Source: a virus. Taken from it: a stretch of DNA of 34,854 nt. A program made the translations under genes and the position numbers. Positions 1,516-34,854 of this stretch are shown here, piece by piece. The stretch covers positions 1-34,854 of IMG/VR virus record IMGVR_UViG_3300007542_000083, one strand, 5' to 3'. How positions within the stretch are numbered: the stretch's first letter is position 1; each line of letters begins with the position of its first letter. Below the pieces are notes generated by a model. It saw only the letters and a list, made by a program, of their open reading frames with translations, searched no databases and was not told where the DNA came from.

Positions 1516-1527
1516 AAAACCTAAAGA

Positions 1528-4922: not shown

Positions 4923-4925
4923 TGA

Positions 4926-5015: not shown

Positions 5016-6458
5016 ATGGTAAACAGAGACTTACTCGCAGAAGCCATTGCCGATGCCAAAGCTGTTAAGGAAACAGCCATCGCCAATGCAAAAGCTGCTT
5101 TGGAAGAAGCCTTTACCCCATTTTTGAAAGAGAAGTTAGCTGCAAAGTTAGCTGAAATGGATAACATGGAAGAGGAAGAAATCAAAGAAGCTGACGACAA
5201 AGAGGGGTACGAAGGTCAAATGGGCAAGAAAAAACTTGGCACCAAAATGACTGAAGCTGATGATGCTGAAGGGTACGAAGGCCAGATGGGTAAAAAACAT
5301 TTGGGTACTAAAGAAGTAGACGAAGCCGAAGAAATGAACCTTGACGAACTCCTTAAGGAATTAGATGAATTAGAAGAGAACATCAACTTGACTGACTTCC
5401 CAGACGAAGAAGGTGAACACGGAAACGTGGCCGCCAAAAACGTTAACGAAGACGCTCGTACAGATGCTGAAGAAGAGGGTTACCTCGACGGCATGAAGGA
5501 CGAGAAAGAAGACGAAGAAGATGAAGAAATCGATCTTGAAAACATGACCGAAGACGATCTCAAATCATTCATCGAAAGTGTAATCGCTGACATGGTTGAA
5601 GCCGGTGAATTAGAAGCTGGTGAAGGTATGGAAGGCGAAGAAGAAATTGAAAGTGAAGAAACTGAAGAAGAAGAAATCACTGAACGTAAAAAAGAAGGAT
5701 ATGACGATCGTGAAGACGAGTCAGTTTCAGCCCGTAGAGGTAAAGAAGCTGGTAAAAAGCAATCTTTCAAAGCCCGCAGAGATGATTCTTACGGTAAATT
5801 TGGAAAGCGTGATGCTGAAGCCGCTGGCAAAGTATCAGGTCCAGGTAAAAACAAAATTAACAAAGAAAATTACGACATGAAAGAAGAAATTGACGAGATC
5901 GTTGGTTCAGGAACCGACTTTGCTCAGTTAGCTGACATGCTAGGTGTTAGTCTTGATGCTGCTAAGTATTTAGTAACAGCTGGTGGATTAGCAGTTCCTG
6001 CTATCTTAGCTGCTATTAAAGTTGGTGGTGACAAAGCTATCCAATTCTTTAAGAAAATGGCTACTAAAAAATCAATGGCCGAAGGTGAAGAAATGGAAGA
6101 AATGAAAGCTGAATTAAATGAAGCTTACAAAACAATTTCTACTATCAAAGAAGAATTAGCTGAAGTTAATTTGTTTAACGCTAAGTTACTTTACACTAAC
6201 AAAATCTTCAAAGCTAAAAATTTGAGCGAAGCTCAAAAGGTTAAAGTATTAGCTGCTTTTGATAAAGCTGCTAGTGTTAAAGAAGCCGAATTAGTATTCG
6301 AAACCTTAAGTGAGGGAATGACTGCTAAGAAAGCTCCTATGAATGAGTCATTAATTCATGGTGGTGCTTCTAAAGCTGCTGGTGTAGCTACTAAGAAGCC
6401 AATTATGGAAGCTAATGACCAGGTTGTTAGATGGCAAAAATTAGCCGGTATTAAATAA
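5016..6458 (+). CDS. 22: Prohead scaffold/core protein, gp22-like
   Basis: This is the internal scaffold around which the capsid shell assembles and which gp21 later degrades. The 480-residue product is very acidic in the first 230 residues, with long Glu/Asp runs. There is a tandem duplication of a unit ending EGYEGQMGKK-LGTK (about residues 58-78 and 79-99). The C-terminal region (about 365-440) carries helical segments such as ELNEAYKTISTIKEELAEV and LSEAQKVKVLAAFDKAASV, like gp22-type scaffolds of T4-like phages. Between them, residues about 295-345 include a hydrophobic Ala/Gly-rich stretch. It sits between protease and capsid genes as in T4. An A-rich leader without Shine-Dalgarno precedes the ATG. 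Confidence 0.75.
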   Translation: MVNRDLLAEAIADAKAVKETAIANAKAALEEAFTPFLKEKLAAKLAEMDNMEEEEIKEADDKEGYEGQMGKKKLGTKMTEADDAEGYEGQMGKKHLGTKEVDEAEEMNLDELLKELDELEENINLTDFPDEEGEHGNVAAKNVNEDARTDAEEEGYLDGMKDEKEDEEDEEIDLENMTEDDLKSFIESVIADMVEAGELEAGEGMEGEEEIESEETEEEEITERKKEGYDDREDESVSARRGKEAGKKQSFKARRDDSYGKFGKRDAEAAGKVSGPGKNKINKENYDMKEEIDEIVGSGTDFAQLADMLGVSLDAAKYLVTAGGLAVPAILAAIKVGGDKAIQFFKKMATKKSMAEGEEMEEMKAELNEAYKTISTIKEELAEVNLFNAKLLYTNKIFKAKNLSEAQKVKVLAAFDKAASVKEAELVFETLSEGMTAKKAPMNESLIHGGASKAAGVATKKPIMEANDQVVRWQKLAGIK

Positions 6459-6483
6459 TTTAAAAAAACAAACAATAAAAACA

Positions 6484-8250: not shown

Positions 8251-8281
8251 TCTAACCTAAAAGGATAAACATTAACAAAGG

Positions 8282-8306
8282 GCCCCGCAAAAGCGGGGCT
8301 TTTTGT
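8282..8306 (+). terminator. Rho-independent terminator after the capsid gene
   Basis: A perfect GC-only 7-bp stem (8282-8288 with 8293-8299) closes an AAAA loop and is followed by a T-rich tract. Flanking A and T tracts (about 8275-8280 and 8300-8310) can extend the stem. It ends the scaffold-capsid unit. Confidence 0.92.
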
Positions 8307-8317
8307 TTTTATTTTCA

Positions 8318-8327
8318 ATATTTATAG
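8318..8327 (+). promoter_or_regulatory. Intergenic ATATTTATA(G) motif, copy 3
   Basis: ATATTTATAG lies directly behind the capsid terminator and 4 nt before the ATG at 8332. A promoter is expected here because the strong terminator intervenes; a start about six nt downstream would give a leaderless mRNA. Confidence 0.45.
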
Positions 8328-8331
8328 ATAT

Positions 8332-8607
8332 ATGTTTAATATATTTGAGGAATTAACTTGGCCACAATTTAGCAAATTGCCTAATATTGTTAAGTTACCT
8401 CTTAACGAACAAGTAACACATTACAATCAGTATTTATTTGAATTAAATACAGCAAGACAAAACTGGATAGATTACCAAAATAAAGGACCTCAATCTAACA
8501 TTATAGGTGTCTTAGCACAAGAAGAATCGTATATTAACATTGACTATCTTTTAGATTATTTTGCTCTATTGCAAGAAGATGGATCATATATTTATGTAAC
8601 AGGATAA
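8332..8607 (+). CDS. Small protein of unknown function
   Basis: The 91-residue product is rich in Tyr, Leu, Asn and Gln and mildly acidic, with no signal peptide or membrane helix. It follows the capsid terminator and the intergenic motif and ends 4 nt before the next gene, so it probably opens a new transcription unit. I recognise no family. Coding is supported by position, tight packing and typical codon use. Confidence 0.55.
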   Translation: MFNIFEELTWPQFSKLPNIVKLPLNEQVTHYNQYLFELNTARQNWIDYQNKGPQSNIIGVLAQEESYINIDYLLDYFALLQEDGSYIYVTG

Positions 8608-15383: not shown

Positions 15384-18300
15384 ATGGCTCAAGTAAGATT
15401 TTTAGATCAGGTTCCCGTAGGTGTATATAATGTTGATACAGCTGGAAGCGGCGGTGGAACAATTGATATTTACCAAAACGGTGCATTAGTAAGTGCTAGT
15501 GTACCCTATATTAATATAAGTGGTTCAGCCGAATTATTTACATTCCAAACCTCAGGGGTAACAGTATATGTTTCATCCTCAGGCGTTGGATTTCCTTTTT
15601 CAGGTTCAGCTGTAATTACAGGATCTTTAGTGATCTCAGGATCTGATCCTCAACCAATTATAATTCAAAATTTACCATATGATGCAACCCCATCATATGT
15701 TGTAACATATAATACAGGAACTGGAGTATTTGAATATTCTGATATGCCATCTAGTGGTACTTCAGGTTCTTCTGGTTCATCTGGAACTTCAGGTAGCTCA
15801 GGCTCATCAGGCACTTCTGGTTCTTCAGGAACTTCAGGCTCATCAGGCACTTCTGGTTCAAGCGGAACATCAGGTTCTTCAGGAACAAGTGGAAGCTCAG
15901 GCTCTTCAGGAACATCAGGTTCAAGTGGAACAAGTGGTTCATCAGGAACTAGCGGTTCTTCAGGTTCAAGTGGAACTTCGGGTAGCTCAGGTTCTTCAGG
16001 AACAAGTGGCTCATCAGGTACTAGTGGTTCATCAGGTACTAGCGGTAGCTCAGGTTCATCAGGTACAAGTGGCTCTTCAGGCTCATCAGGTACTAGCGGA
16101 AGTTCAGGCTCATCTGGCACTTCAGGCTCATCAGGCTCAAGCGGAACATCAGGTTCTTCAGGAACTTCAGGTTCTTCAGGAACTTCAGGTATAAACGGTA
16201 GTTCAGGTACTAGTGGCTCATCAGGAACCTCAGGTTCAAGTGGTTCATCAGGTACTTCAGGTTCATCAGGAACAAGTGGTTCATCAGGAACAAGCGGCTC
16301 TTCAGGCTCAAGTGGAACAAGCGGCTCTTCAGGCTCATCAGGTACAAGCGGCTCTTCAGGTAGTTCAGGTACTTCAGGTTCATCAGGCTCAAGTGGAACT
16401 AGTGGTTCTTCAGGTTCATCTGGAACATCAGGTTCATCAGGATCAAGTGGTACCTCAGGAAGTTCAGGTTCTTCAGGAACATCAGGCTCAAGCGGAACTT
16501 CAGGCAGTTCTGGTACATCAGGTATTGATGGCTCATCAGGCTCATCAGGTACAAGTGGTTCTTCAGGTACAAGCGGTTCTTCAGGTTCATCAGGAACCTC
16601 AGGTTCATCCGGTTCTTCAGGAACTAGTGGTTCTTCGGGATCAAGCGGAACCTCAGGAAGTTCAGGTTCATCTGGAACAAGTGGCTCATCTGGAACTTCA
16701 GGTTCCTCAGGTACAAGTGGCTCTTCAGGTTCAAGTGGCACTTCAGGTTCAAGTGGGTCTTCAGGAACAAGCGGCTCTTCAGGCTCAAGTGGAACAAGTG
16801 GAAGCTCAGGTACATCAGGTTCATCAGGAACTTCAGGCAGCTCTGGCACTTCAGGCATTGATGGTTCATCAGGTTCTTCAGGAACAAGTGGCTCATCAGG
16901 TACTAGCGGTAGTTCAGGTTCATCAGGTACTAGTGGTTCTTCAGGATCATCGGGCACATCAGGTATAAGTGGTATTAATGGTACTTCAGGTTCAAGTGGA
17001 ACCTCAGGCAGTTCAGGTACTTCAGGCTCATCCGGATCTAGTGGAACATCAGGTTCATCAGGTTCAAGCGGAACAAGTGGTTCAAGTGGAACATCAGGTA
17101 GCTCAGGTTCTTCAGGTACAAGCGGAAGCTCAGGTTCTTCAGGTACAAGCGGTAGCTCAGGAACTTCAGGTTCCTCTGGTTCTTCTGGTACATCTGGTTC
17201 TTCTGGTACATCTGGTTCATCAGGTACTTCAGGTTCCTCTGGAAGTAGTGGCACCTCAGGTATAAGTGGCGTTAATGGTACTAGTGGTTCTTCAGGCTCA
17301 AGTGGCACTTCTGGATCTAGTGGTTCATCAGGAACATCAGGTTCAAGCGGAACGAGTGGTTCATCTGGTTCATCCGGAACCTCAGGCTCATCAGGTACAA
17401 GCGGCTCTTCAGGCTCAAGCGGAACTTCAGGTAGTTCAGGTTCATCAGGAACAAGTGGTTCATCAGGTTCAAGTGGAACAAGTGGTTCATCTGGAACAAG
17501 TGGTTCAAGTGGATCATCAGGTACTAGTGGCTCAAGTGGTAGTAGCGGTACTTCAGGTATAAGTGGTGTTAACGGCACTAGTGGTTCATCTGGTTCATCC
17601 GGAACCTCAGGTTCAAGCGGAACTAGTGGTTCTAGTGGTACTTCAGGTAGCTCAGGCTCATCTGGAACTTCTGGCTCATCTGGCACTTCAGGCTCATCAG
17701 GTACATCTGGTTCAAGTGGCACCTCAGGAAGTTCAGGTTCATCTGGAACTTCAGGTTCATCAGGAACTAGTGGTAGTTCAGGTACTAGTGGTTCATCTGG
17801 AACAAGTGGTTCTTCAGGCTCATCAGGCACATCAGGTTCTTCTGGAAGCAGCGGAACATCAGGTATATCAGGTGTAAATGGCACATCTGGCTCAAGTGGA
17901 ACTAGTGGTTCAAGTGGAACCTCTGGTTCAAGTGGTACAAGCGGATCTTCTGGCTCATCAGGTACATCAGGTTCATCAGGCACATCTGGTTCAAGTGGTA
18001 CTTCAGGTAGTTCTGGTTCATCAGGAACTAGTGGCTCAAGTGGAACAAGTGGTTCATCTGGAACTAGTGGTTCAAGTGGCTCTTCAGGCACTTCAGGCTC
18101 TTCAGGCACTTCAGGCTCTTCAGGCTCTTCAGGTACATCAGGTTCCTCAGGTACATCAGGTTCAAGTGGTTCAAGTGGTACTTCAGGTATAAGTGGTGTT
18201 AACGGCACTAGTGGTTCATCTGGAACTAGTGGTTCAAGTGGTACATCAGGAAGTAGTGGTTCAAGCGGAACAAGTGGTTCATCTGGTACATCAGGTTCAA

Positions 18301-21300
18301 GTGGAACCTCAGGTTCATCTGGTTCAAGCGGAACAAGTGGTTCATCTGGAACATCAGGTTCTTCAGGAACAAGTGGCTCATCAGGTTCTTCAGGAACAAG
18401 TGGCTCTAGTGGTTCAAGCGGAACATCTGGTTCAAGCGGAACAAGTGGTAGCTCAGGATCATCAGGTACTTCAGGTTCATCAGGATCAAGCGGTACTTCA
18501 GGTATATCGGGAGTAAACGGAACTAGTGGTTCTTCAGGAACTTCAGGCTCATCAGGTACTAGTGGCTCATCTGGTACATCAGGTAGCTCAGGTTCTTCAG
18601 GAACAAGTGGTTCATCCGGTTCAAGTGGAACTAGTGGTTCTTCAGGTACTTCAGGTTCAAGCGGTACATCAGGTAGTTCAGGTTCTTCAGGAACAAGTGG
18701 ATCTTCTGGCTCAAGTGGAACTAGTGGGTCTAGTGGAACTAGCGGATCTAGTGGTACATCAGGTTCAAGTGGTTCAAGTGGCACTTCAGGTTCTTCTGGT
18801 TCTAGCGGTACTTCAGGTTCTAGCGGAACTAGTGGTAGCTCAGGTACTAGCGGTTCATCTGGAACATCTGGTAGTTCAGGCTCATCAGGTACAAGTGGAA
18901 GTTCAGGAACTTCCGGCTCATCAGGTTCATCAGGTACAAGCGGCTCTTCAGGCAGCTCAGGTACTTCAGGTATATCTGGCGTAAATGGTACGTCAGGCTC
19001 TTCAGGAACTAGTGGTAGTTCAGGTACTGGTGGTTCATCTGGAACAAGTGGAAGTTCAGGCTCATCTGGAACTTCAGGCTCATCAGGCTCATCAGGAACT
19101 TCAGGTTCAAGTGGAACTAGCGGATCTAGTGGTACATCAGGTTCAAGTGGTTCATCAGGCACTTCTGGTTCTTCAGGTTCTTCTGGAACATCAGGTTCAA
19201 GTGGCACCTCTGGTTCATCTGGAACATCTGGCAGTTCAGGTTCCTCAGGTACTTCAGGTAGTTCAGGTTCTTCTGGAACAAGCGGTTCAAGCGGTTCATC
19301 TGGAACATCTGGTTCTAGTGGAACAAGTGGTTCATCAGGTTCTTCAGGAACAAGTGGCTCATCAGGTTCAAGCGGAACCTCAGGTAGTTCTGGCACTTCA
19401 GGTTCTTCAGGGACATCTGGATCAAGTGGTTCATCAGGGACTAGTGGTTCAAGCGGCTCTTCAGGAACTAGTGGTTCAAGCGGAACTTCAGGCTCATCAG
19501 GAACAAGTGGAAGCTCTGGAACATCAGGTTCTAGTGGCTCATCAGGTACAAGCGGTTCTTCAGGCAGCTCTGGTACCTCAGGTATAAGTGGTGTGAATGG
19601 AACTAGTGGTTCATCAGGAACTAGTGGTAGTTCAGGTACATCAGGTTCAAGTGGTTCTTCAGGAACATCAGGAAGTTCAGGAAGCTCAGGAACAAGTGGT
19701 AGTTCAGGTACATCAGGCTCAAGCGGAACATCAGGCAGCTCAGGTTCAAGTGGAACCTCAGGTTCATCTGGTTCATCTGGAACTTCAGGCAGCTCAGGAA
19801 CAAGTGGTTCAAGCGGAACTAGTGGCTCATCAGGCTCATCTGGTACTAGTGGCTCATCTGGTTCATCAGGAACTTCAGGTTCAAGTGGAACAAGTGGTTC
19901 ATCTGGTACTTCAGGCTCATCAGGAAGTAGTGGTACTTCAGGTAGCTCAGGAAGTTCAGGTACAAGTGGCTCATCTGGTACTTCAGGTAGTTCAGGAACT
20001 TCAGGTAGCTCTGGTTCATCAGGAACTAGTGGCAGCTCAGGTTCAAGCGGAACTTCAGGTAGTTCTGGTACTTCAGGTTCAAGTGGAACCTCTGGTTCAT
20101 CAGGTACAAGCGGCTCAAGTGGTTCTTCAGGAACTTCTGGCTCATCAGGCTCATCAGGTACAAGCGGCTCAAGTGGCAGCAGTGGTACTTCAGGTATAAG
20201 TGGTGTAAATGGAACTAGTGGTTCATCAGGAACAAGCGGTAGTTCAGGTTCTTCAGGAACATCAGGTAGTTCTGGTTCTAGTGGCACATCAGGTTCTAGT
20301 GGCTCAAGTGGAACTTCAGGCTCATCTGGTACTTCTGGAGCTAGTGGGGCTTCAGGAACAAGTGGTACTTCAGGAACATCAGGTTCAAGCGGTTCAAGTG
20401 GAACAAGTGGTTCATCAGGAACTAGCGGCAGCTCAGGTTCAAGTGGAACTTCAGGTAGTTCAGGTTCTTCAGGTTCTTCAGGTTCATCTGGTTCTTCAGG
20501 TTCATCCGGTTCATCTGGTACTTCAGGAAGTTCAGGTTCATCTGGAACATCAGGCTCTTCAGGTACTAGTGGTAGCTCTGGAACCTCAGGTTCATCAGGC
20601 TCATCTGGAACCTCAGGTTCAAGTGGAACAAGTGGCTCTTCTGGAACATCAGGATCATCAGGTTCAAGCGGAACAAGTGGTTCTTCTGGTTCTTCTGGAA
20701 CTAGTGGAAGTTCAGGAACAAGCGGTTCTTCAGGTTCAAGCGGAACAAGTGGTTCTTCAGGTTCTTCCGGAACCTCTGGTTCATCAGGATCAAGTGGTAC
20801 TTCAGGTATAAGTGGTGTAAACGGAACTAGCGGTTCTTCAGGAACAAGTGGTTCAAGTGGCTCATCAGGTTCTTCAGGAACATCAGGTAGCTCAGGTTCA
20901 TCAGGTACAAGCGGCTCTTCAGGTACATCCGGCTCTTCAGGTACTTCAGGTTCTAGTGGAACATCAGGTAGCTCAGGCTCATCTGGTACTTCAGGAAGTT
21001 CAGGTCATCAGGAACTAGTGGTTCTTCGGGTACATCAGGCTCTTCAGGCTCAAGTGGTACTAGTGGCTCATCAGGTTCATCAGGAACAAGTGGTTCAAGC
21101 GGTACTTCAGGTTCTAGTGGCTCATCAGGAACATCGGGTTCATCAGGTACTAGTGGTTCAAGTGGCTCATCTGGAACTAGTGGTTCAAGCGGTTCATCAG
21201 GAACATCTGGTTCATCTGGAACATCAGGTTCTTCAGGATCTAGTGGAACAAGTGGCTCTAGTGGCTCTTCAGGAACAAGTGGTTCAAGTGGTACTTCAGG

Positions 21301-24300
21301 TTCAAGTGGTTCATCAGGTACATCGGGCTCATCAGGATCAAGCGGTACAAGCGGAAGTTCAGGAACTTCCGGCTCATCAGGTTCATCAGGTACAAGCGGC
21401 TCTTCAGGCAGCTCAGGTACTTCAGGTATAAGTGGTGTAAACGGAACATCAGGTTCTAGTGGTACATCAGGCTCAAGTGGTTCAAGCGGTACTAGTGGCT
21501 CAAGTGGTAGCTCTGGTACTTCTGGGTCAAGTGGCTCAAGCGGAACAAGCGGTTCAAGTGGAACATCAGGCTCTTCAGGAACAAGCGGTTCTTCAGGCAG
21601 TTCAGGAACTTCTGGTTCTTCTGGAAGTAGTGGTACTTCCGGTTCATCAGGAACATCTGGTTCATCAGGTTCATCAGGAACAAGCGGCTCATCAGGTACC
21701 AGTGGCTCAAGTGGAAGCTCAGGTTCAAGTGGAAGTTCAGGCACTTCAGGTTCTTCAGGTTCTAGCGGAACATCAGGATCAAGCGGTTCTTCAGGAACAA
21801 GCGGTTCTTCAGGAAGTTCAGGAACATCAGGAAGCTCAGGCACATCAGGTTCAAGTGGAACAAGCGGTTCATCTGGAACTAGCGGAAGTTCAGGTTCAAG
21901 TGGAACATCAGGTTCTTCAGGCTCAAGCGGAACAAGCGGTAGTTCAGGTTCATCAGGAACAAGCGGTTCTTCAGGTACTAGTGGTAGCTCTGGAACTTCA
22001 GGTTCTAGTGGCTCATCAGGAACTTCAGGTTCATCAGGATCAAGTGGTACCTCAGGTATAAGTGGTGTAAACGGAACTAGCGGTTCTTCAGGTACTAGTG
22101 GTAGTTCTGGAACTTCAGGTTCAAGTGGAACAAGCGGTTCAAGTGGTTCTTCTGGTACTTCAGGTAGTTCTGGTTCTTCAGGAACTAGTGGCTCATCAGG
22201 AACATCAGGTTCATCAGGAAGTTCAGGAACAAGTGGTTCAAGCGGAACAAGTGGTTCAAGTGGTTCATCTGGTACTTCTGGTTCTAGCGGTTCATCAGGA
22301 ACATCAGGTTCTTCTGGTTCTTCAGGAACATCAGGAAGTTCAGGTTCAAGCGGAACAAGTGGTTCTAGCGGAACATCAGGAAGTTCTGGAACATCAGGAT
22401 CTAGTGGTTCTTCAGGAACATCTGGTTCTTCAGGTTCTTCAGGAACATCAGGTAGTTCTGGTACTAGTGGTTCATCAGGAACTAGTGGTAGTTCAGGTAC
22501 TTCAGGATCATCTGGTTCGTCTGGTACTTCAGGAAGCTCAGGTTCTTCAGGTACATCAGGTTCAAGCGGAACTTCAGGTTCTAGTGGATCAAGTGGTACA
22601 TCAGGTAGCTCAGGATCAAGCGGTACTTCAGGTTCATCAGGTACTTCAGGTTCAAGTGGAACTAGCGGTTCATCTGGTTCTTCAGGAACATCAGGTATAT
22701 CAGGTGTTAATGGAACAAGTGGTTCAAGCGGAACTTCTGGTTCAAGCGGCACTTCAGGTTCTTCAGGAACTAGTGGCTCAAGTGGTTCATCTGGAACTTC
22801 AGGCTCATCTGGCTCAAGTGGAACAAGCGGTTCTTCAGGCACATCCGGCTCATCTGGCACTTCAGGTTCATCAGGTAGCTCAGGTACTTCTGGTTCATCT
22901 GGAAGCAGTGGCACTTCAGGTTCTTCAGGAACATCAGGTTCAAGTGGCTCATCTGGAACATCAGGTTCAAGCGGTTCAAGTGGAACAAGTGGTTCATCTG
23001 GTACTTCTGGTTCTTCTGGAAGTAGTGGCACTTCAGGTTCTTCAGGAACATCAGGTAGTTCAGGTTCTTCTGGTACTTCTGGATCATCTGGTTCATCAGG
23101 AACTAGCGGTTCAAGTGGTACTTCAGGTTCAAGTGGAACTTCAGGAAGTTCAGGTACTTCAGGTTCATCAGGTTCTAGTGGAACATCAGGATCAAGCGGT
23201 TCATCAGGAACATCTGGTTCATCTGGAACATCAGGTTCTAGCGGAACATCAGGTTCTTCAGGATCTTCTGGAACAAGCGGATCTTCAGGTTCATCTGGAA
23301 CATCTGGTTCATCTGGTACTTCAGGGTCTTCAGGATCAAGTGGAACAAGTGGTAGCTCAGGCTCATCAGGAACTAGCGGTTCATCAGGAACTAGCGGTTC
23401 ATCAGGAACAAGTGGAAGCTCTGGAACATCAGGTTCTAGTGGCTCATCAGGTACAAGTGGCTCAAGTGGTAGCTCTGGTACCTCAGGTATAAGTGGTGTA
23501 AATGGAACATCAGGTAGCTCTGGAACTTCAGGTTCTAGTGGAACTAGCGGTTCAAGTGGTACTTCAGGATCTTCAGGTTCTTCTGGAACAAGTGGATCAA
23601 GTGGTTCATCCGGAACAAGTGGTAGTTCAGGAACAAGTGGTTCAAGCGGAACTAGTGGTTCATCAGGCTCATCTGGAACAAGCGGTTCTTCAGGTTCCTC
23701 AGGCACATCAGGTAGTTCAGGTACTTCAGGTTCATCTGGTACAAGCGGTTCATCTGGATCTTCTGGAACAAGCGGTTCTTCAGGTTCATCAGGTACTTCT
23801 GGATCTTCTGGAACATCAGGTTCAAGCGGAACTTCAGGATCAAGCGGCTCAAGTGGAACAAGCGGAAGCTCAGGATCAAGTGGAACCTCTGGTTCAAGCG
23901 GAACAAGTGGTTCAAGCGGAACAAGTGGCTCTTCAGGAACATCAGGATCAAGTGGTTCATCAGGAACATCAGGTTCATCCGGATCAAGCGGAACAAGTGG
24001 TTCTAGTGGAACATCAGGATCAAGTGGAACATCAGGTAGTTCAGGTTCTTCAGGAACAAGCGGATCAAGTGGCTCTTCAGGAACTTCAGGATCAAGTGGA
24101 ACAAGTGGAAGTTCAGGCACATCAGGATCTAGTGGTTCTTCTGGAACAAGCGGTTCATCTGGTTCTTCAGGAACAAGTGGAAGCTCTGGAACTTCAGGTT
24201 CAAGTGGATCTTCTGGAACATCAGGTTCAAGCGGAACAAGCGGTTCAAGCGGAACTTCAGGTTCAAGTGGATCTTCAGGAACATCAGGTATAAGTGGTGT

Positions 24301-25837
24301 TAATGGAACAAGCGGTTCTTCAGGTACTAGTGGTAGCTCTGGAACATCAGGTTCTAGTGGAACAAGCGGTTCAAGTGGTTCAAGCGGAACTTCAGGTAGT
24401 TCAGGAAGTTCAGGAACAAGTGGCAGTTCAGGAACTTCAGGTTCTTCAGGAACATCAGGTTCAAGCGGTTCAAGTGGAACAAGTGGTTCAAGTGGTTCAT
24501 CTGGAACTTCTGGTTCTAGTGGTTCATCAGGAACAAGCGGTTCTTCAGGAACATCAGGTTCAAGCGGCTCATCAGGAACTAGCGGAAGTTCAGGCTCAAG
24601 CGGAACAAGCGGTTCTTCAGGAACATCTGGTTCATCTGGCTCAAGCGGCACTTCAGGTAGTTCAGGTTCATCTGGTACTTCTGGTTCTTCAGGAACAAGT
24701 GGTTCATCAGGAACAAGCGGTTCTTCAGGTTCAAGTGGAACATCAGGATCTTCAGGTTCATCAGGAACATCTGGTTCTAGTGGTACAAGTGGATCAAGCG
24801 GTACTTCAGGTTCATCTGGAAGCAGCGGTACTTCAGGTAGTTCTGGTTCTTCAGGAACCAGTGGCTCATCTGGTACTTCAGGCAGCTCAGGTACTTCAGG
24901 TAGCAGTGGTTCATCAGGAACAAGTGGTAGCTCAGGCTCATCTGGAACTTCAGGAAGTTCAGGTACTTCTGGATCATCTGGAACATCAGGTTCATCCGGA
25001 ACTTCAGGCTCATCAGGTTCTTCAGGCACTTCAGGTTCATCAGGTTCTAGTGGTACTTCAGGCTCAAGCGGTTCATCAGGAACATCAGGTATAAGCGGAG
25101 TAAATGGAACATCAGGTTCTAGTGGTACTTCAGGTTCAAGCGGAAGCTCAGGTACTTCAGGATCAAGTGGTTCTTCAGGAACATCAGGTTCATCTGGCAC
25201 TTCAGGTTCTTCAGGAACAAGCGGTACTTCAGTATCAGTAAGTGGTACTAATAATACAATTGTTAAGTTTACAAGTGCTACAACAATTGGTAACTCTACT
25301 ATTACAGATGATGGAACTACTATTGATTTTGGTGTTCCAACAATGGATGTAGCAAGCGGTAACCTAAATATGGGTGGTGCTAACATCGACACTGGTGGAG
25401 GTAATATTGATATCACTGGAGGCGGAGGTATGAACTTTAACGCTGGTACTATAACAGGTACAGCAGGTTCAGTGATTAACGTAGATACCTTAAATGGTGT
25501 AACTAAAAACTTTGATATAACACACCCAACAAAAGGCGAACCTCATAGATTAAGATACTCAGTATTAGAAGGTCCAGAAATTGGTGTATATGTTAGAGGT
25601 AGATTAACTAATAATAACATAATTGAATTACCATACTACTGGGTTGATTTGGTACATGAAGATTCTATAACAGTAACTTTAACTTCAATAGGTAGTTACC
25701 AAAACTTATATGTAATATCTACAAGTCCAAAAATAATAACAATAGGAAGTGAAAACGGAAATATAGATTGTTACTATGTAGTATACGGAGAACGTAAAGA
25801 CGTAGACAAACTAACAATTGAATATACTAAAAAATGA
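15384..25837 (+). CDS. Giant Gly-Ser-Ser/Gly-Thr-Ser triplet fibre protein, interrupted by a 1-nt deletion
   Basis: As written, the frame from 15384 leaves the repeat at about 21005 and stops at 21431 (2015 residues). Adding one base there restores a single 3484-residue product ending at 25837. Parts: N-terminal domain of 124 residues with VITGSLVISGS; 1053 triplets of Gly-(Ser/Thr)-Ser (residues 125-3283) with 19 Ile-containing markers; and a 201-residue C-terminal part. The C-terminal part has a Gly/Asn-rich beta region (DTGGGNIDITGGGGMNF) and then a block HPTKGEPHRLRYSVLEGPEIGVYVRG (split by me) through LPYYWVDLVHEDSITVTLTSIG to ERKDVDKL. I associate that block with fibre proteins of cyanophages and other marine myoviruses. 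Glycine at every third residue fits a collagen-like or polyglycine-II helix. Most likely an extremely long tail fibre. The preceding gene is gp15-like and the next is another fibre. Confidence 0.8.
15756..25231 (+). repeat. 9-nt-period coding repeat, 1053 Gly-X-Ser triplets
   Basis: The whole 9476 nt (9477 with the missing base) is built of 9-nt units encoding GSS or GTS. GTS units are separated by one or two GSS units almost without exception. Serine uses all six codons (TCG rare) and Gly and Thr mostly three each, so protein identity is high while DNA identity between neighbouring units is not. Ile markers interrupt at 16191, 16524, 16857, 16965, 17262, 17559, 17865, 18189, 18504, 18972, 19584, 20196, 20808, 21428, 22058, 22697, 23489, 24290 and 25091 (first base of the Ile codon). 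Confidence 0.95.
21000..21011 (+). other. Single-base deletion (frameshift) in the giant fibre gene
   Basis: At 21003-21010 the pattern Gly-Ser-Ser reads GGT CA TCA; a T is missing between 21005 and 21006. Codon phase changes from position modulo 3 = 0 to 2 and stays so to the stop at 25837. The marker interval 20808-21428 is 620, while every other interval is a multiple of 9. No slippery heptamer is seen. A sequencing or assembly error is most likely; a real mutation is possible. Confidence 0.9.
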
Positions 25838-28213: not shown

Positions 28214-29098
28214 ATGTTACCATATTCAGGAGAAATAGGATACGGTGATATTCGAGGAGAATTTGGAAGTCCAAATAACTTTAATTTGCAAGATGTTTGG
28301 AATGGAACTTATGGCCCTTTTAATGTATATAGTTATATCCAACCTATAGACCCGGGAGGAGCTAATTACTCTCCTGCTGATTTTTATGGGTATGATGGTC
28401 AATATATAGTTTCAAATAATCTAGTTACTGTTTGGGATGCCTGGCCTACCATTAACTCATACCCAGGATTTGGAACATCAATTACAGATGTCACATTTAA
28501 TGGACATGATGGTACTCTTTACAATGGAACTGGTTGGGATCCTAGTGATGGAGGATCTTTTTCTTTTGATGGTATAGATGATTATATAGCTGGTTTTACT
28601 CCTTACTGGACTTTTGGAAATGAAATAACAGTAGATATTTGGATTAAATGGAATACTTCTATTAACTATGGTCAAGGAGTTGGACAAGGAGTACTAAACA
28701 ATTATGACAATCCAGGTGATAATATGTGGTTAATGCATGGGAATGGTGGAGGCCAACAAACACTTTCTATATTTGCTTGGGATTCACCTACTTCTACAGT
28801 TGGAGGAGCTACATCAGGATATTTAACTACAGGTAACTGGTACAATTTAATAGGTGTTATAAACTCTGCCGGTTCTCAAATGTATACAAATGGTACTTTG
28901 ACAGGAACGGGGGGTGGTTTTGGTGGTGGAAATATGAATACAACCCCATCATCATGTTTATTAGGTGGGGGTGATGTTAGATATGATTTTAGACGTATGG
29001 GTGGAAATATAGCTGCTATTCATATTTACAACTCTGCTTTTATACAAGCTGAAGTAACCCAAAATTTTGGTGCTTTAAGAGGAAGATTTGGTATTTAA
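28214..29098 (+). CDS. LamG/concanavalin-like fold fibre-tip protein
   Basis: The 294-residue product starts with a phage structural segment (LPYSGEIGYGDIRGEFG, followed by SPADFYGYDG at about 53-62), then a LamG_3-like jelly roll. The lectin-type pattern is visible as DGTLYNGTGWDPSDGGSFSFDGIDDYI (about 100-126, split by me), ITVDIWIKWN, GNWYNLIGVINSAGSQMYTNGTL and IAAIHIYNSAF near the end. Such domains bind glycans on cell surfaces. It follows the collagen-like fibre by 3 nt, so it may form a receptor-binding tip or adhesin. The LamG fold is a good call; the target is unknown. Confidence 0.72.
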   Translation: MLPYSGEIGYGDIRGEFGSPNNFNLQDVWNGTYGPFNVYSYIQPIDPGGANYSPADFYGYDGQYIVSNNLVTVWDAWPTINSYPGFGTSITDVTFNGHDGTLYNGTGWDPSDGGSFSFDGIDDYIAGFTPYWTFGNEITVDIWIKWNTSINYGQGVGQGVLNNYDNPGDNMWLMHGNGGGQQTLSIFAWDSPTSTVGGATSGYLTTGNWYNLIGVINSAGSQMYTNGTLTGTGGGFGGGNMNTTPSSCLLGGGDVRYDFRRMGGNIAAIHIYNSAFIQAEVTQNFGALRGRFGI

Positions 29099-29135: not shown

Positions 29136-29717
29136 ATGTATTCAAGACCTATATTTGATCCTAATTTAGAAGTTGATCAAACTAATTATTATTGGTTCGA
29201 AAATGGATTTACTTCAAAAGAAGTAACAGAAATCCTAGAACTTACAAAAACTTATGAATTTCAACAAGGTACTATTATATCTGGTAACACTGGAGATATA
29301 AGAAATAGTAGTATTAAATGGCTTGCTCCTGATGAAAAAACATCATGGGTTTATGATCGTTTAATGGGATGTGTTAAAGAAGCCAATAATGTTTGGAAAT
29401 TTAATCTTAATTCTATTTTAGATGATATTCAATATACTGAATATAGAGGTGGAGGAGGTCATTATGATTGGCATATAGACATAGGTCCAGGACCAATTTC
29501 CCACCGTAAAATTTCAGTTATTGTCCAACTTTCAAATCCTTCAGAGTATACTGGAGGTACTTTAGAAATAAGTTCAGGAAGTAATACTCAAAAAATATCT
29601 AATAAAAAAGGAGCCGTAATTGTATTTCCTTCATTTTTACAACATCGAATAACTCCTGTAGCCTCAGGTCTAAGAAAAAGTTTGGTATTGTGGGCTGGTG
29701 GAGAACATTATAAATAA
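29136..29717 (+). CDS. 2-oxoglutarate/Fe(II)-dependent oxygenase
   Basis: This 193-residue enzyme has the jelly-roll hydroxylase motif set: GGHYDWHIDIG with His113 and Asp115, RKISVIVQLSNPSEYTGGTLEI (124-145, split by me), FPSFLQHRITPV with His170, and GLRKSLVLW with Arg180 as the likely 2-oxoglutarate ligand. It resembles the PKHD/prolyl-hydroxylase group widespread in T4-like phages. Its gene opens a run of modification enzymes directly after two Gly-X-Y fibre genes, so hydroxylation of fibre Pro or other residues is a reasonable hypothesis, not a demonstrated function. An AT-rich 37-nt leader precedes it (29099-29135), with no clear copy of the intergenic motif. Confidence 0.82.
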   Translation: MYSRPIFDPNLEVDQTNYYWFENGFTSKEVTEILELTKTYEFQQGTIISGNTGDIRNSSIKWLAPDEKTSWVYDRLMGCVKEANNVWKFNLNSILDDIQYTEYRGGGGHYDWHIDIGPGPISHRKISVIVQLSNPSEYTGGTLEISSGSNTQKISNKKGAVIVFPSFLQHRITPVASGLRKSLVLWAGGEHYK

Positions 29718-29718
29718 A

Positions 29719-30708
29719 ATGATTGATAATCTTGTTAAATTAGTTTTAGATAAAGGAGGTTCTATATCTCATTTAAAAATTCCTTCAATTGATAGTAAAG
29801 GAACAGGTTTATGTAATCCTTCTATTTTTGTAGATAATGATGGAACTCTTTTACTTAATTTACGAAATGTAGGATATGTTCTTTATTTATGTGAAAATGA
29901 ACAAAAATTTCAAGGACGTTGGGGACCATTAGCATATCTCCACCCAGAAGAAGATCCCCATTTACGAACAGATAATTTTCTTTGTATTTTAGATCCTAAA
30001 ACCTTAGAAATTAAATCTTACAATAAAGTAAACACATCAGAATTGGATATTGAGCCTGTTTGGGATTTTATAGGACTAGAAGATGCTAGAGTAGTTCGTT
30101 GGGATGGTATTTTATACATTACAGGTGTTAGAAGAGATACTAAGCCAAATGGAGAAGGACGAATGGAATTATCTGAAATAGATAATTTTAAAACTGCTAA
30201 TGAAATTTCAAGAGTCAGAATAGAACCACCTAACGACCCTGATTCTTATTGTGAAAAAAATTGGATGCCTATTAATGATATGGATTACTGTTATGTTAAA
30301 TGGGCTAATCCAACTGAGGTAGTTAAAGTAGATCCTATTAAAGGAACTAGCGAAACCATATTTTTAGGAAATTTTAAAGAAATAAGTCCAAACCATGATG
30401 CTAGAGGAGGCTCATCAGTAGTTAAATGGAAAAACTACAGATTATGCGTTGTTCATGAAGTTGATTTTTGGATGAATGAAAATAATAATAAAGATGGTAT
30501 TTATAACCATCGTATTATTGTTTGGGATGAAAATTGGAATATTGTAAAATATTCTGATGTTTTTAAATTTATGACAGGACGAATTGAATTTATTTGTGGA
30601 GCAGCAGTTGTTGATAATGATTTAGTTTTAACTTATGGATTCCATGATAATGCAGCTTTTGCATTAAGAATCCCTGAAAATGTTGTAGAGGAATTAATCA
30701 ATGGATAA
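29719..30708 (+). CDS. Beta-propeller carbohydrate-active-like protein (GH43/GH130-like)
   Basis: I prefer the ATG at 29719, one base after the previous stop (TAA, 29715-29717), over a GTG at 29698 that would overlap it; this gives 329 residues. Blades of a five-bladed propeller are suggested by repeated strand-turn motifs: NPSIFVDNDGTLLLNLR (33-49), LEDARVVRWDGILYITG (120-136), WMPINDMDYCYVKW, GGSSVVKWKNYRLCVVHE and ICGAAVVDNDLVLTYG. The spacing of NPSI and LEDARVV resembles GH43 and GH130 enzymes (glycosidases or phosphorylases). Catalytic acids cannot be assigned with confidence. It is surrounded by sugar- and protein-modifying genes, so a role in fibre glycan handling is inferred. It overlaps the next gene by 8 nt. 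Confidence 0.55.
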   Translation: MIDNLVKLVLDKGGSISHLKIPSIDSKGTGLCNPSIFVDNDGTLLLNLRNVGYVLYLCENEQKFQGRWGPLAYLHPEEDPHLRTDNFLCILDPKTLEIKSYNKVNTSELDIEPVWDFIGLEDARVVRWDGILYITGVRRDTKPNGEGRMELSEIDNFKTANEISRVRIEPPNDPDSYCEKNWMPINDMDYCYVKWANPTEVVKVDPIKGTSETIFLGNFKEISPNHDARGGSSVVKWKNYRLCVVHEVDFWMNENNNKDGIYNHRIIVWDENWNIVKYSDVFKFMTGRIEFICGAAVVDNDLVLTYGFHDNAAFALRIPENVVEELING

Positions 30709-31930
30709 AATATTAGAAAACTTTATAAACCATCCTTACAATCCAGAAACTAATTTTTTGTTTGGAGAACAGTATTATCAAGAAGGACATAAAGCTGCTG
30801 CTTTAACATTATTTTTAAGAACAGCAGAATATGGAACTGATAAAGATTTAGTGTATGAAGCCTTACTTAAAGTAATGTTATGTTTAAAAGAATTAGAAGG
30901 ACGACCTCATTCAACAAGAGGTGCTATTTTAAATGCTATTACTTTTGATCGTGAACGACCTGAGGCTTATTATCATTTAAGTTGTGATCATCAAATTAAA
31001 GGTGAATGGCAAGAATCTTATTTAGCAGCTGTTCAAGGACTAGATAAATTAAATAATATGAAACCAACATTAACTAGTGTTAACTTTCCTGGTGAATATG
31101 CTTTGTTATTTCAAAAAGCAGTAGCAAGTTGGTGGATTGGATATTGTGATGAATCAAGAGAATTATTTAATCACTTACTAAAAGAATATTCAATGCGCTC
31201 TGAATTTGTAGAAGCTTGTTATACTAATTTATCTAAAATTCATGGAATCCAATATCCTTCTTTATTATATACAAAAGAAGAATACCCAAAACTTAAATAC
31301 AAATTTAAAAACTCAGATAAAATTGAAAAAAATTATTCCCAAGCATACCAGGATCTTTTTGTTTTGTCTATGTTAGATGGAAAAGAAAAGGGAACTTACG
31401 TTGAAATAGGAGCATCAGACCCTTATTACAATAGTAATACAGCTTTGTTAGAAAAAGATTTTGGTTGGACCGGAGTATCATTAGAAATTAACGAAGAAGA
31501 AGTAAATAAATTTAATTTAGAACGTTCTAATAAATGTATTCTTCAAGATGCTACAACTGTTAACTATGAAGAGTTATTTAATAATAACGGCTTAACTGAG
31601 GTTATAGACTATCTACAGGTTGATGTTGAACCCGCAGAAGTAACGTTTAATGTTTTACTTTCTATACCTTTTGATAAGTATAAATTTAGAGTAATTACAT
31701 ATGAACATGATTATTATTTAAATCATCCTGTTGATTATAGAAAACTTTCAAGAAAATTTTTAGAAGCTCAAGGTTATAAAATGATTGTAGGAGATATTGC
31801 TCCTGATTCAAATAGTACTTTTGAAGACTGGTGGGTACACCCTGAACTAGTAGACTCAGAAATTATTACAGCAATGGTTGATTACTCAGAAAAAATTAAA
31901 AGAGCAGATCATTATATATTAAATGGGTAA
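30701..31930 (+). CDS. TPR-like domain fused to FkbM-type methyltransferase
   Basis: The product has 409 residues. Residues about 15-180 form helical pairs of tetratricopeptide type (for example ALTLFLRTAEYGTD, PEAYYHLSCDHQIKGEWQESYLAAVQGL). From about 210 an FkbM/Methyltransf_21 domain follows: NYSQAYQDLFVLSML, SAM-binding VEIGASD (234-240), SNTALLEKDFGWTGVSLEIN (245-264) and LQVDVEPAE (305-313). FkbM enzymes O-methylate sugars or polyketides. TPR fusions of this type are often found with glycosyltransferases and may bind the protein substrate. Start overlaps the preceding gene by 8 nt and the end overlaps the radical SAM gene by 8 nt. Confidence 0.8.
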   Translation: MDKILENFINHPYNPETNFLFGEQYYQEGHKAAALTLFLRTAEYGTDKDLVYEALLKVMLCLKELEGRPHSTRGAILNAITFDRERPEAYYHLSCDHQIKGEWQESYLAAVQGLDKLNNMKPTLTSVNFPGEYALLFQKAVASWWIGYCDESRELFNHLLKEYSMRSEFVEACYTNLSKIHGIQYPSLLYTKEEYPKLKYKFKNSDKIEKNYSQAYQDLFVLSMLDGKEKGTYVEIGASDPYYNSNTALLEKDFGWTGVSLEINEEEVNKFNLERSNKCILQDATTVNYEELFNNNGLTEVIDYLQVDVEPAEVTFNVLLSIPFDKYKFRVITYEHDYYLNHPVDYRKLSRKFLEAQGYKMIVGDIAPDSNSTFEDWWVHPELVDSEIITAMVDYSEKIKRADHYILNG

Positions 31931-32768
31931 TCAAGACTGGAAAATAACACCTTATGCAACTATGGAGGTTACAACTAACCTTCCTAAAAAAGGTTGTGTA
32001 GTTGACTGTATTTTCTGTCCTCAACGAACCTTAGTTAAAAATTATAATGGAACTCGTCATTTATCTTTAGAAGACTTTAAGAGAGCAGTAAATAAAATTC
32101 CAACAGAAGTTAGAATCACATTTGCAGGATTTACTGAACCTTGGACTAATAGACATTGTACAGATATGTTACTTTATGCTTATGAAAAAGGCCATAGAGT
32201 AGCAGCTTTTACTACAGGAGTAGGAATGACAGTAGAAGATGTTGAAAGACTTAAAGATATTTCTTTTGATGAAGGACCAAATGCAGGGTTTGTTTTACAT
32301 TTACCTGACCAAGAAAGACTAGCTAAACATCCTATAACCCCTCGTTATATAGAAGTAATTGAAGCTTTTGGAGTACATCAAGATTCTTTCAATAAATTTT
32401 ATTTAATGTCTATGGGTAGTGTTCATGAAAAGGTAAAACATGTTTTTGATCGAGTTGCTAACCCTGAAATGTGGTCTAGAGCAGGTAATTTAATTGGAGA
32501 AGCAATTATGAAACCTGAACTATTAAATGTTAAAGAACTATTTAGATCAGTATATCATGGAGAGTCTCCTAAAACTTGTGGTTGTATAGAAAATTTGTAT
32601 CATAACGTGATGCTTCCAAATGGAGATGTATCTTTATGTTGTATGGATTATTCTTTAAGTTATATTATAGGAAATATGTTTGAACAAGAATATGAAGAAA
32701 TAATTCCAAAATTAAACACTTGTTATGATATGTGTCGTTATTGTGAAAATGGAGTAAACCCTAATTAA
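31923..32768 (+). CDS. Radical SAM enzyme with SPASM-like C-terminal cysteines
   Basis: The product has 281 residues. The iron-sulphur motif is Cx3Cx2C at Cys25, Cys29 and Cys32 (KGCVVDCIFCP), binding the 4Fe-4S cluster that cleaves S-adenosylmethionine. The C-terminal part has CGCIENLYHNVMLPNGDVSLCC and CYDMCRYCENG (first one split by me), the layout of a SPASM domain with auxiliary clusters. SPASM enzymes typically modify peptides or proteins (thioether, epimerisation, sulfatase maturation). The centre holds ITFAGFTEPWTN, a TIM-barrel strand with a conserved Glu. Substrate unknown; the neighbouring fibre and modification genes suggest a virion protein. It overlaps the preceding gene by 8 nt. 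Confidence 0.85.
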   Translation: MGNQDWKITPYATMEVTTNLPKKGCVVDCIFCPQRTLVKNYNGTRHLSLEDFKRAVNKIPTEVRITFAGFTEPWTNRHCTDMLLYAYEKGHRVAAFTTGVGMTVEDVERLKDISFDEGPNAGFVLHLPDQERLAKHPITPRYIEVIEAFGVHQDSFNKFYLMSMGSVHEKVKHVFDRVANPEMWSRAGNLIGEAIMKPELLNVKELFRSVYHGESPKTCGCIENLYHNVMLPNGDVSLCCMDYSLSYIIGNMFEQEYEEIIPKLNTCYDMCRYCENGVNPN

Positions 32769-32769
32769 A

Positions 32770-33771
32770 ATGAAACCAATTATAATAATATCCGCTTACT
32801 GTCCTGATGATGAAAGAAAACTAATACTTGAAAATTGTGTTAATTCTCTTCAACCAATTAGAAAAGATTTTGATATTTTAATTTCAACTCATTCTTATAT
32901 TCCTGAACATATTGGAAAAAAAGTAGATTTTGTTTTTTATGATGCTAATAATGATTTAATTTATGATTGGGACTTATTAAATACTCCTTGGTTCTCACCT
33001 TCCCCTGGGTTAGTTATAGTTTCTTCTTTAATCTCTAATTTTAGTACTTACTCTGCTTGTAATAGAATTATTATGGGTGGTTTTGGTATAGCTAAAAACT
33101 TTGGATATGAAAAAGCACATTATATAGACTATGATGCTATTATTAATGATTATTCTGATTTTTATGAAAACAATAAATTACTAGATAATTATGTCGCTAT
33201 CCAATATAAAAAAGAATATAGAAACTATGAACATAATATTGAAGGAGGAGTAGGAGTATTCCAGGCTGCAAATTTAAATAAAGTAAATAAGATTTTTACA
33301 ACATATAATGAAAAAGAACTATTAGAAGTATTAAAAAATGCTCCTAATAAAACAAATGAAATTATATACCAGGATCTATATAAACTAGATGGAGAAGAAA
33401 TTTTATATAAAAATTGGGATTCTCTTATAGAAAAAGGAAATATATTTAATCAATCTATTTCTACTCAAAAAGATGATTTAAATGATTGGACAGTTCCTTA
33501 TTATGATACTAAAACAGGTAAAATAAATGTTATAGCTTGGAACTCTAAAAAAGATTATCCTATTAATGTAAGTTTTATTATTAATCAAGAAAAAATTGTA
33601 ACATTAAATAATGTTAATAAATTTGAATGGAAAACATCTGAAGTAGATGACATTAATAATATTAATGAAATACTAATTATTGTTGATAATAAAATTAAAA
33701 ACCATGTAATTATTAATACTCCTGAATTAAAAGAAAAATTTATAAGAAATAATCAAACTCAATATAAATAA
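32770..33771 (+). CDS. Glycosyltransferase-like protein (probable GT-A fold)
   Basis: The product has 333 residues. The N-terminus (PIIIISAYCPDDERK, then FDILISTHSYIP) looks like the first strands of a nucleotide-sugar-binding GT-A fold. YEKAHYIDYDAIIND (113-127) gives a DYD motif in the position where metal-binding DxD motifs occur. The C-terminal 70 residues are Asn/Lys/Ile-rich and probably a separate beta region. It follows the radical SAM gene by 1 nt. The family is inferred from fold pattern rather than strong motif identity, so this is moderate. It would transfer sugar to a virion protein or glycan if the context is informative. Confidence 0.5.
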   Translation: MKPIIIISAYCPDDERKLILENCVNSLQPIRKDFDILISTHSYIPEHIGKKVDFVFYDANNDLIYDWDLLNTPWFSPSPGLVIVSSLISNFSTYSACNRIIMGGFGIAKNFGYEKAHYIDYDAIINDYSDFYENNKLLDNYVAIQYKKEYRNYEHNIEGGVGVFQAANLNKVNKIFTTYNEKELLEVLKNAPNKTNEIIYQDLYKLDGEEILYKNWDSLIEKGNIFNQSISTQKDDLNDWTVPYYDTKTGKINVIAWNSKKDYPINVSFIINQEKIVTLNNVNKFEWKTSEVDDINNINEILIIVDNKIKNHVIINTPELKEKFIRNNQTQYK

Positions 33772-33774
33772 TAT

Positions 33775-34641
33775 ATGATATATTTTGAATTAAAAAATAA
33801 AATTGCTACTCCTGAAAGTCCTGAAGTTTTTACTTTTAAAGTAGAATTAGATCCTAAGTTACAAAACATTTTAAAAGAACATTTAATTATTAAGTTTTGC
33901 ACTATTGGAAAAAACAACCCAGAAGGATGGGAAACTAAAATTACCCCAGGATGTTGGAGTGAATGGAATGGAGGAGGTAATAGTAGATGGGACATTATTA
34001 TTATGGATAATAATCGAAATATTTTATTTACTAGAGAATATAATTCTCTTTATGATGGTAGTGATTTAGACAAAGCATTTAATTTATATTGTAAAATAAA
34101 TAAACAAACAAAAGGAATAGTGATAGGATCCCATGATGGCCTTTTTGGACACTGGGTACAATCAGTAAGAGATAATGAAACAGAATGTTTAATTATTGAA
34201 GGATCAACCCCCCAATTTATAAAACTAACTGAAAATTATAATAAATATAAAAATTGTACATTAATAAATGAAATTGTTACTGTAAAAGGAGGTCCTGTAG
34301 AATGGCATACTGGGGGTGAAGGGTTTACTGATTCAATACATAAGGATGTTAATTTAAAGTTTTTAAAAGATGAAGAAATTAAAACAGAAATAAAAAATAG
34401 TATTTCTATAAATGATTTAATTGAAAAACATAATTATCAAAATTATGATTGGCTTCATACAGATATTGAAGGATATGATGCTGAATTAATTATGGGATTA
34501 AAATATTTACCTAAATTTATAATTTTTGAAAACGAACATTCTAAAACATTAGGAACTTATATACATGTTAAAAAATATTTAGAACATTTAAATTATAATG
34601 TTATTGAAATAGGTATTGACACATTAGCAGTAAAACAATGA
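33775..34641 (+). CDS. FkbM-type methyltransferase
   Basis: The product has 288 residues. The first 105 residues form an extra beta-rich domain (WSEWNGGGNSRWDIIIMDNN). The methyltransferase follows with IVIGSHDGLFGHW (115-127) as the SAM loop, LIIEGSTPQFIKLTENY (139-155), and the family signature YDWLHTDIEGYDAELIMGL (224-242) containing Asp230 and Glu232. It is a different subtype from the TPR fusion at 30701. The stop TGA overlaps the next ATG (ATGA), so translation of the following gene is coupled. Sugar O-methylation is the usual FkbM role; substrate here is unknown. Confidence 0.8.
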   Translation: MIYFELKNKIATPESPEVFTFKVELDPKLQNILKEHLIIKFCTIGKNNPEGWETKITPGCWSEWNGGGNSRWDIIIMDNNRNILFTREYNSLYDGSDLDKAFNLYCKINKQTKGIVIGSHDGLFGHWVQSVRDNETECLIIEGSTPQFIKLTENYNKYKNCTLINEIVTVKGGPVEWHTGGEGFTDSIHKDVNLKFLKDEEIKTEIKNSISINDLIEKHNYQNYDWLHTDIEGYDAELIMGLKYLPKFIIFENEHSKTLGTYIHVKKYLEHLNYNVIEIGIDTLAVKQ

Positions 34642-34854
34642 TAGTATTTGATAAATTTATAGAAAACCAAAAGGGAATTCAATTTAGTTCTTTAGAATCC
34701 CAAGAAATTGTTATTAAAATAATAGATGGATATACTGAACTTTGTTCATATGAAAGAAAAATGGATGTTATTCCAAATATAAACTATTATTTTTTTCATC
34801 CTGTTGATGTATATCACAGACGGTTTGAAATTTGGGATAATTTAGAACAAAATT
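34638..34854 (+). CDS. Start of an additional modification-cluster gene (3' partial)
   Basis: An open frame begins at the ATG overlapping the previous stop (ATGA) and runs in frame to the window edge, 72 complete codons. Visible residues (MIVFDKFIENQKGIQFSS at the start, then YYFFHPVDVYHRRFEIW) show no motif I can assign. The coupled start and matching AT-rich codon use make it a real gene. Its function is not determinable from the fragment. Confidence 0.65.
   Translation, partial: MIVFDKFIENQKGIQFSSLESQEIVIKIIDGYTELCSYERKMDVIPNINYYFFHPVDVYHRRFEIWDNLEQN

Follow-up and report, generated by a model that had tools for sequence, protein, structure and literature searches.

The virus record IMGVR_UViG_3300007542_000083 of IMG/VR contains genes for two Gly-X-Y triplet fibres, one of them giant, and a run of enzyme genes downstream of them, which raises the question of what these enzymes modify. 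The stretch analysed here (the window) is the entire record of 34,854 bases, a piece of a T4-like phage genome. An original prediction, made from the letters alone, had proposed that the enzymes decorate the adjacent fibres. Most likely, the enzyme genes form the first half of a phage fibre-glycosylation cassette, and sequence comparisons make it probable, in our view, that a putative phage-encoded pathway O-glycosylates and O-methylates the triplet fibres.

Enzyme families and fibre repeat chemistry

Two enzyme families are central here. One is represented by the second cassette gene (ORF2), whose product is a predicted propeller; the other is the TibC/BAHT family (TIGR04414), a member of which is encoded just past the window in a 99.99% identical twin contig (L002/L024), into which the cassette extends. 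Since sets of loci collected through the enzymes are unable to show the substrate, we fetched viral contigs of at least 20 kb by fibre DNA pattern alone (Ser-type, Pro-type and Thr/Gln-type triplets) and searched the whole records; the Ser-type set was additionally required to contain at least 150 amino acids of triplets. TIGR04414 was found in 20 of 41 Ser-type (GSS/GTS) contigs and in none of the 38 Pro-type or 42 Thr/Gln-type contigs (Fisher P = 8e-12). By size, the counts were 10/11 Ser-type against 0/7 other contigs at 80 kb or more (P = 2.5e-4) and 10/30 against 0/73 at 20-80 kb (P = 1e-6). The ORF2 family was present in 26/42 Thr/Gln-type, 3/38 Pro-type and 0/41 Ser-type contigs (P = 1.8e-12). 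The two enzyme families, which are unrelated, thus go with opposite kinds of fibre repeat, and the co-occurrence of cassette and Gly-X-Y fibres that had been proposed as a check takes the form of a match between enzyme type and repeat chemistry.

The enzymes are also closely linked to their fibres. In 14 of the 20 positives, TibC and a Ser fibre are at most 6.5 kb apart, and genomes as large as 249, 299 and 548 kb are among these; on contigs of at least 80 kb the distance is within 5 kb in 7 of 10, against 1.4 expected at random (P about 5e-5). For ORF2, a triplet fibre was located within 7.6 kb in 18/20. Known TibC is a proven Ser (not Thr) O-heptosyltransferase of a family that forms dodecamers and uses ADP-heptose as donor, and BAHT genes adjoin the genes of their substrates (PMC4358343); the association of the phage enzymes with Ser triplets matches this Ser specificity.

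Within one lineage defined by gp18, the combinations separate: loci with only a Ser fibre carry only TibC (L107 and L111), those with only a Thr/Pro fibre carry only ORF2 (L009 and L011), and those with both fibre types carry both enzymes (the window, L004 and the contig of L092). For contigs with both ORF2 and TibC, we predicted a Ser fibre upstream. On the contig of L092, which was out of sample, this fibre is present, with 184 pattern matches just past the cassette; the contig of L086 (both enzymes) has 22 Ser-pattern matches, and L116 and L139 (TibC only) match too. The pattern was found in none of several truncated contigs and in 0 of 16 records with ORF2 in which no TibC was seen. The substrate link, originally drawn from gene position, thus gains support from the fibre-anchored co-occurrence, close linkage in genomes of up to 548 kb, a Ser-specific family and one out-of-sample prediction.

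The window phage combines the three fibre chemistries with the three enzymes, TibC being encoded just past the window. An enzyme-to-triplet code, in which Ser (GSS/GTS), Thr (GTT/GTQ) and Pro triplets (the last in T4-like phages at least) would each have their own enzyme (BAHT-like, GT108-like and 2-oxoglutarate (2OG) oxygenase, respectively) and glycans would keep Pro-free triplet chains usable as fibre, is an extension of this result to which we give only a slight preference over its negation.

One other sample and one other marker were set aside. A 'neutral' sample anchored on the tail sheath gave a borderline result for TibC versus collagen (6/11 against 5/26, P = 0.04), because of short flanks and because PF01391 misses some Ser triplets, and was replaced by the fibre-anchored test. 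PF05050 (FkbM) was rejected as a marker of triplet type; it occurs in both Ser-type and Thr/Gln-type contigs, and in 0 of the 19 Pro-type contigs searched.

The fibres and the cassette genes

The relevant features are as follows; all of those in the window are on the + strand.

15384..25837, +, giant triplet fibre of Ser type (GSS/GTS), two frames totalling about 3,484 aa
25850..28210, +, second triplet fibre, GPT/GTT/GPQ/GAT type (Pfam Collagen 2.4e-79; Peptidase_S74 5.8e-18)
28214..29098, +, fibre or adhesin subunit with a LamG/ConA-like lectin domain (Laminin_G_3 7.3e-12)
29136..29717, +, ORF1, 2OG-Fe(II) oxygenase, PKHD/YbiX-like (2OG-FeII_Oxy_3, PF13640, 4.5e-15)
29698..30708, +, ORF2, predicted GT108/GH130-fold propeller (AlphaFold and Foldseek)
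30701..31930, +, ORF3, TPR domain and FkbM methyltransferase (PF05050, 22.6 bits, just below the 22.7 cut-off)
31923..32768, +, ORF4, radical SAM/SPASM protein (Radical_SAM 28.4, cut-off 29.5; SPASM 24.5, cut-off 21.5)
32770..33771, +, ORF5, predicted GT-A-fold nucleotide-sugar transferase-like protein (AlphaFold and Foldseek fold match)
33775..34641, +, ORF6, FkbM methyltransferase 2 (PF05050 1.9e-6; 28.5 bits, above the 22.7 cut-off)
34638..34854, +, ORF7, first part of FkbM methyltransferase 3, truncated where the window stops; full-length copy in the twin contig
L002:15218-17500, GT4 and TibC/BAHT fusion, 760 aa (TIGR04414 217.5 bits, curated cut-off 200)

The fibre genes predicted upstream of the cassette are present, but the giant fibre proved to be one gene, split by an apparent single-nucleotide frameshift near 21011. 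In the twin contig, L024 is open across the portion covered and lacks this shift; the break is a sequencing or assembly slip or a local variant. The triplets of the giant fibre are nearly exclusively GSS and GTS, and it is the probable, putative substrate of the TibC-type enzyme. The second fibre is Thr-rich, ends in a C-terminal S74 chaperone domain and is the probable, putative substrate of ORF2 and of the oxygenase; the LamG protein gene sits between it and the cassette. Ser and Thr number about 2,300 over the two fibres, in agreement with the estimate of more than 2000. The claim of many X-position prolines applies to the second fibre, with 60 Pro at X and none at Y, but not to the giant fibre, whose triplets have no Pro.

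As originally described, the cassette in the window consists of seven consecutive ORFs, which overlap by 4-20 nt or are separated by 1-3 nt, and nearly all of the family calls made for them hold (by Pfam profiles or, for the propeller and the GT-like protein, by AlphaFold and Foldseek). ORFs 1-5 are under purifying selection in comparison with a relative of about 88% identity (dN/dS 0.09-0.15). ORF1 scores 56.8 bits against a PF13640 cut-off of 27, its metal and co-substrate residues (H113-x-D115...H170...R180) are intact and invariant in 12 sequences, and its nearest relatives are PKHD hydroxylases; it is a putative fibre hydroxylase, perhaps prolyl.

For ORF2, there was no match among Pfam, NCBIfam or PDB profiles, and membership in GT108 or GH130 at the sequence level was not found. 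The predicted model (pLDDT 82) has as its best PDB matches Leishmania MPT-2, MPT-4 and MPT-1 (GT108) and GH130 mannoside phosphorylases, with a Foldseek E-value of 2.4e-9 to MPT-2, probability 1.00 and TM about 0.5-0.6. From this model, ORF2 would work like GT108/GH130 enzymes, and we do not claim membership. Alignment revealed an invariant motif, G126-L-E-D129-x-R131, the E128-D129-x-R131 part of which may hold the catalytic Asp. Homologues in two cyanophages were labelled beta-mannosyltransferase and MGP by their depositors, and the family is confined almost wholly to phage contigs; its nine bacterial matches are mostly on short contigs of metagenome-assembled genomes with phage-tail-like neighbours. 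We regard ORF2 as a putative glycosyltransferase of mannosyl type that would work on or with Thr-type fibres. PDB profile searches with the ORF2 and GT-like alignments gave no meaningful match, and the assignments came from the fold search.

ORF3 follows ORF2 directly in nearly all cases and is a putative sugar O-methyltransferase with a substrate-binding TPR domain. In ORF4, the CX3CX2C motif (C25, C29, C32) and the SPASM cysteines (C219/221/239/240/271/274) are invariant in nine sequences, and this domain is fused to ORF2 or TPR-FkbM in relatives. ORF5 has no Pfam match. The full-length ORF7 of L002 is a protein of 317 aa (TIGR01444 1.9e-30; PF05050 67.8 bits).

Beyond it, L002 encodes a small methyltransferase, a GT9-like protein, the GT4-TibC fusion and FkbM methyltransferase 4, followed by tail genes. 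The TibC part forms the C-terminal half of the fusion and aligns with the solved TibC structure (2.8e-37); no PHROG family covering it was found. The catalytic D110 and sugar-binding K230 of TibC correspond to the conserved D491 and K615, and the iron-finger cysteines 339/342/358/370 correspond to C714/717/733/745 with identical spacing. All six residues are invariant across 19 phage sequences.

Evidence against a fibre pathway and alternative targets

Several observations weigh against a pathway dedicated to triplet fibres. No Ser fibre was found within 10 kb of TibC in 6 of the 20 positives, and L122-L125 and L218 have TibC but lack a fibre in its vicinity. ORF2 and TPR lie beside LamG fibres without collagen in a 112-kb contig (L042/L175) and inside a sugar-nucleotide gene cluster in the L056 clade, and L060 and L074 have them in the absence of triplets; all of the loci named so far in this paragraph led us to reject the idea that the whole cassette is exclusive to Gly-X-Y fibres. 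L208 has a triplet fibre without the cassette, and in 21 of the 41 Ser-triplet contigs no TibC was found, 20 of these 21 being fragments below 80 kb. In addition, the P values for co-occurrence are optimistic, since the contigs are phylogenetically non-independent. The oxygenase belongs here as well: the hydroxylation originally proposed as possible gains support only within the T4-like lineage, in which the oxygenase tracks Pro triplets at loci not fetched by it (12/15 against 0/19 contig groups, P = 8e-7), but not in the fibre-anchored sample, in which it was present in 5/38 Pro-type and 4/42 Thr/Gln-type contigs (P = 0.44, not significant). Oxygenase-Pro matching as a general rule was therefore left unconfirmed. 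The original prediction named routine occurrence of the cassette in phages lacking triplet fibres as evidence against it; the propeller/TPR-FkbM core does occur next to non-triplet fibres or away from any fibre, and so the cassette is not exclusive to triplet fibres.

It is unlikely that the enzymes modify other virion proteins, such as LamG adhesins, baseplate or capsid, with the triplet fibre as a mere neighbour. ORF2-TPR lies beside LamG or S74 fibres in L042/L175 and L036, with no triplets detected, and in mycobacteriophages the capsid and tail tube, not fibres, reportedly bear phage-made glycans. However, such targets leave the residue-type matching unexplained.

Quite unlikely, in our opinion, is the editing of a host surface glycan (O-chain or capsule) to block co-infection, the fibres being neighbours only through the host-recognition island. 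The corresponding hypervariable tail-fibre region of T4-like pelagimyophages contains glycosyltransferases that have been read in this way, as modifying the host O-chain (PMC7029224); the ORF2~TPR genes of the L056 clade are in a fibre-free cluster, and the GT9-like genes resemble lipopolysaccharide heptosyltransferases. On the other hand, host-glycan editing predicts neither the matching of enzyme and triplet chemistry nor the short distance, a few kb, that separates enzyme and matching fibre even in jumbo genomes, and TIGR04414 is a family of protein-serine glycosyltransferases.

We judge it very unlikely that fibre type and enzymes were merely co-inherited in a few phage groups and are functionally unconnected. 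All sets were drawn from metagenomic viral contigs and the counts ignore kinship, but gene order varies among the positives, whose contigs range from 20 to 548 kb, and the fibre/enzyme combinations separate even within the gp18-defined lineage. Finally, a DNA hypermodification cassette, with FkbM, radical SAM and glycosyltransferase proteins acting on bases, is hardly credible: phage glycosyltransferases reportedly often target DNA, and one cytosine methyltransferase-like gene is near ORF2 in L056, but the cassette has fibre genes on one side and tail genes on the other, TibC acts on protein, and no gene of the window was recognised as serving base synthesis.

Proposed pathway, related systems and variant loci

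For the fibre-modification pathway, we infer the substrates, sugars, order of steps and purpose from the genes with their folds and catalytic residues and from the co-occurrence and linkage observed. Fibre chains would be synthesised in the host cytosol, and the 2OG oxygenase may hydroxylate residues in Pro-containing triplets. The GT108/GH130-type ORF2 enzyme might add a mannose-type sugar to Thr-type triplets, or to the first sugar there, and Ser residues of the GSS/GTS fibre might receive heptose or a related sugar from the GT4-TibC/BAHT enzyme. Glycans could be extended or initiated by the GT-A and GT9-like enzymes, the FkbM enzymes could O-methylate the sugars while the TPR domain grips the repeat, and the radical SAM enzyme could make one more change. 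The resulting sugar coat may stiffen or solubilise Pro-free triplet fibres, set receptor binding, or both.

Known systems resemble parts of this scheme, and each of its elements has a precedent among them. Like BAHT enzymes (TibC, AAH), the phage enzyme passes the TIGR04414 cut-off, keeps catalytic residues and iron finger and adjoins the gene of a Ser-rich repetitive surface protein; unlike them, it is fused to GT4, and its partner is a phage triplet fibre instead of a beta-helical autotransporter. ORF2 shares the predicted propeller with GT108 (Leishmania MPT) and GH130, both five-bladed, but has no detectable sequence match to them, is almost phage-only and is tied to TPR-FkbM and Thr triplet fibres. 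In mycobacteriophages Che8, Corndog and Myrna, phage-encoded glycosyltransferases act on virion proteins; the glycans are reportedly on capsid and tail tube, whereas fibres and a larger enzyme set are proposed here. Mimivirus L230, a collagen lysyl hydroxylase/glucosyltransferase, is likewise a viral hydroxylase and glycosyltransferase for Gly-X-Y proteins (PMC9614988), but it is Lys-based, of unrelated families and from a eukaryotic virus. In Clostridioides difficile, the SgtA gene adjoins that of BclA3, a GPT collagen-like spore protein with O-GlcNAc on triplet Thr, and on Ser too in peptides (PMC7157674). A glycosyltransferase gene thus stands beside a triplet-protein gene there as well, although no relatedness to the phage enzymes was detected and the setting is a bacterial spore coat. 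Literature searches, largely outside subscription journals, turned up no report of TibC-like enzymes with phage fibres as substrates.

Large aquatic phages have many glycosyltransferase and methyltransferase genes in their hypervariable host-recognition regions, and these are commonly classed with host-surface functions or auxiliary metabolism; the match between enzyme family and fibre repeat gives such genes a concrete, testable role. If true, Ser-specific BAHT enzymes would extend from autotransporters to virus fibres, an almost phage-only GT108-like propeller family would be added, and the receptor-contacting surface may be sugar and not protein, which would change the prediction of fibre function and host range. 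If the enzyme-to-triplet code is also true, many 'auxiliary' glycosyltransferases and methyltransferases in host-recognition islands would be fibre-maturation enzymes. Two isolated phages with adjacent enzyme/fibre pairs, Microcystis phage Mel-JY01 and Synechococcus phage DSL-LC02, make this testable now.

In Mel-JY01 (L597), a Ser-type triplet fibre gene (2-3052) adjoins a gene (4750-8430) for a 1,226-aa protein composed of GT4, a methyltransferase region and TibC, the existing annotation of which is only FkbM methyltransferase. In DSL-LC02, it is Thr/Gln fibres that adjoin ORF2, TPR-FkbM and radical SAM genes. The major head protein of the window phage is nearest to that of Flavobacterium phage immuto (54%), followed by Mel-JY01 (49%); portal, prohead protease and PhoH were also recognised in the window.

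Across the loci surveyed (22 radical-SAM, 55 ORF2 and 61 TibC), the genes are mostly located between triplet/S74/LamG fibres and tail/neck genes. Domains are shuffled by fusion (ORF2~FkbM~rSAM, TPR~FkbM~rSAM, TPR~FkbM~DUF6445 and GT4~TibC~FkbM), and the repeated fusion of the same domains suggests that they belong to a single pathway.

Some variant loci were also observed. In a T4-like clade, ORF2-TPR-FkbM is directly followed by a fusion of an RfaE domain II-like (heptose-1-P adenylyltransferase) and a mannose-6-phosphate isomerase-like half (L061:5747-6520 and L074:12264-13025); both halves score below curated cut-offs, and the fusion would possibly fit the supply of mannose/heptose sugar nucleotides. 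Another T4-like clade (L074, L223-L227) has several adjoining radical SAM-like genes upstream of ORF2-TPR-FkbM. In the clade of L056, L048, L054, L057 and L077, ORF2~TPR lies beside nucleotidyltransferase, epimerase and cytosine methyltransferase-like genes with no fibre near, and ORF2 may have a role outside fibres there. In cyanophages, a DUF6445 domain with a 2OG-oxygenase-like HxD...H motif is fused to TPR-FkbM or follows it (L080:12971-14836 and L079:15118-15711), and may replace the window-type oxygenase.

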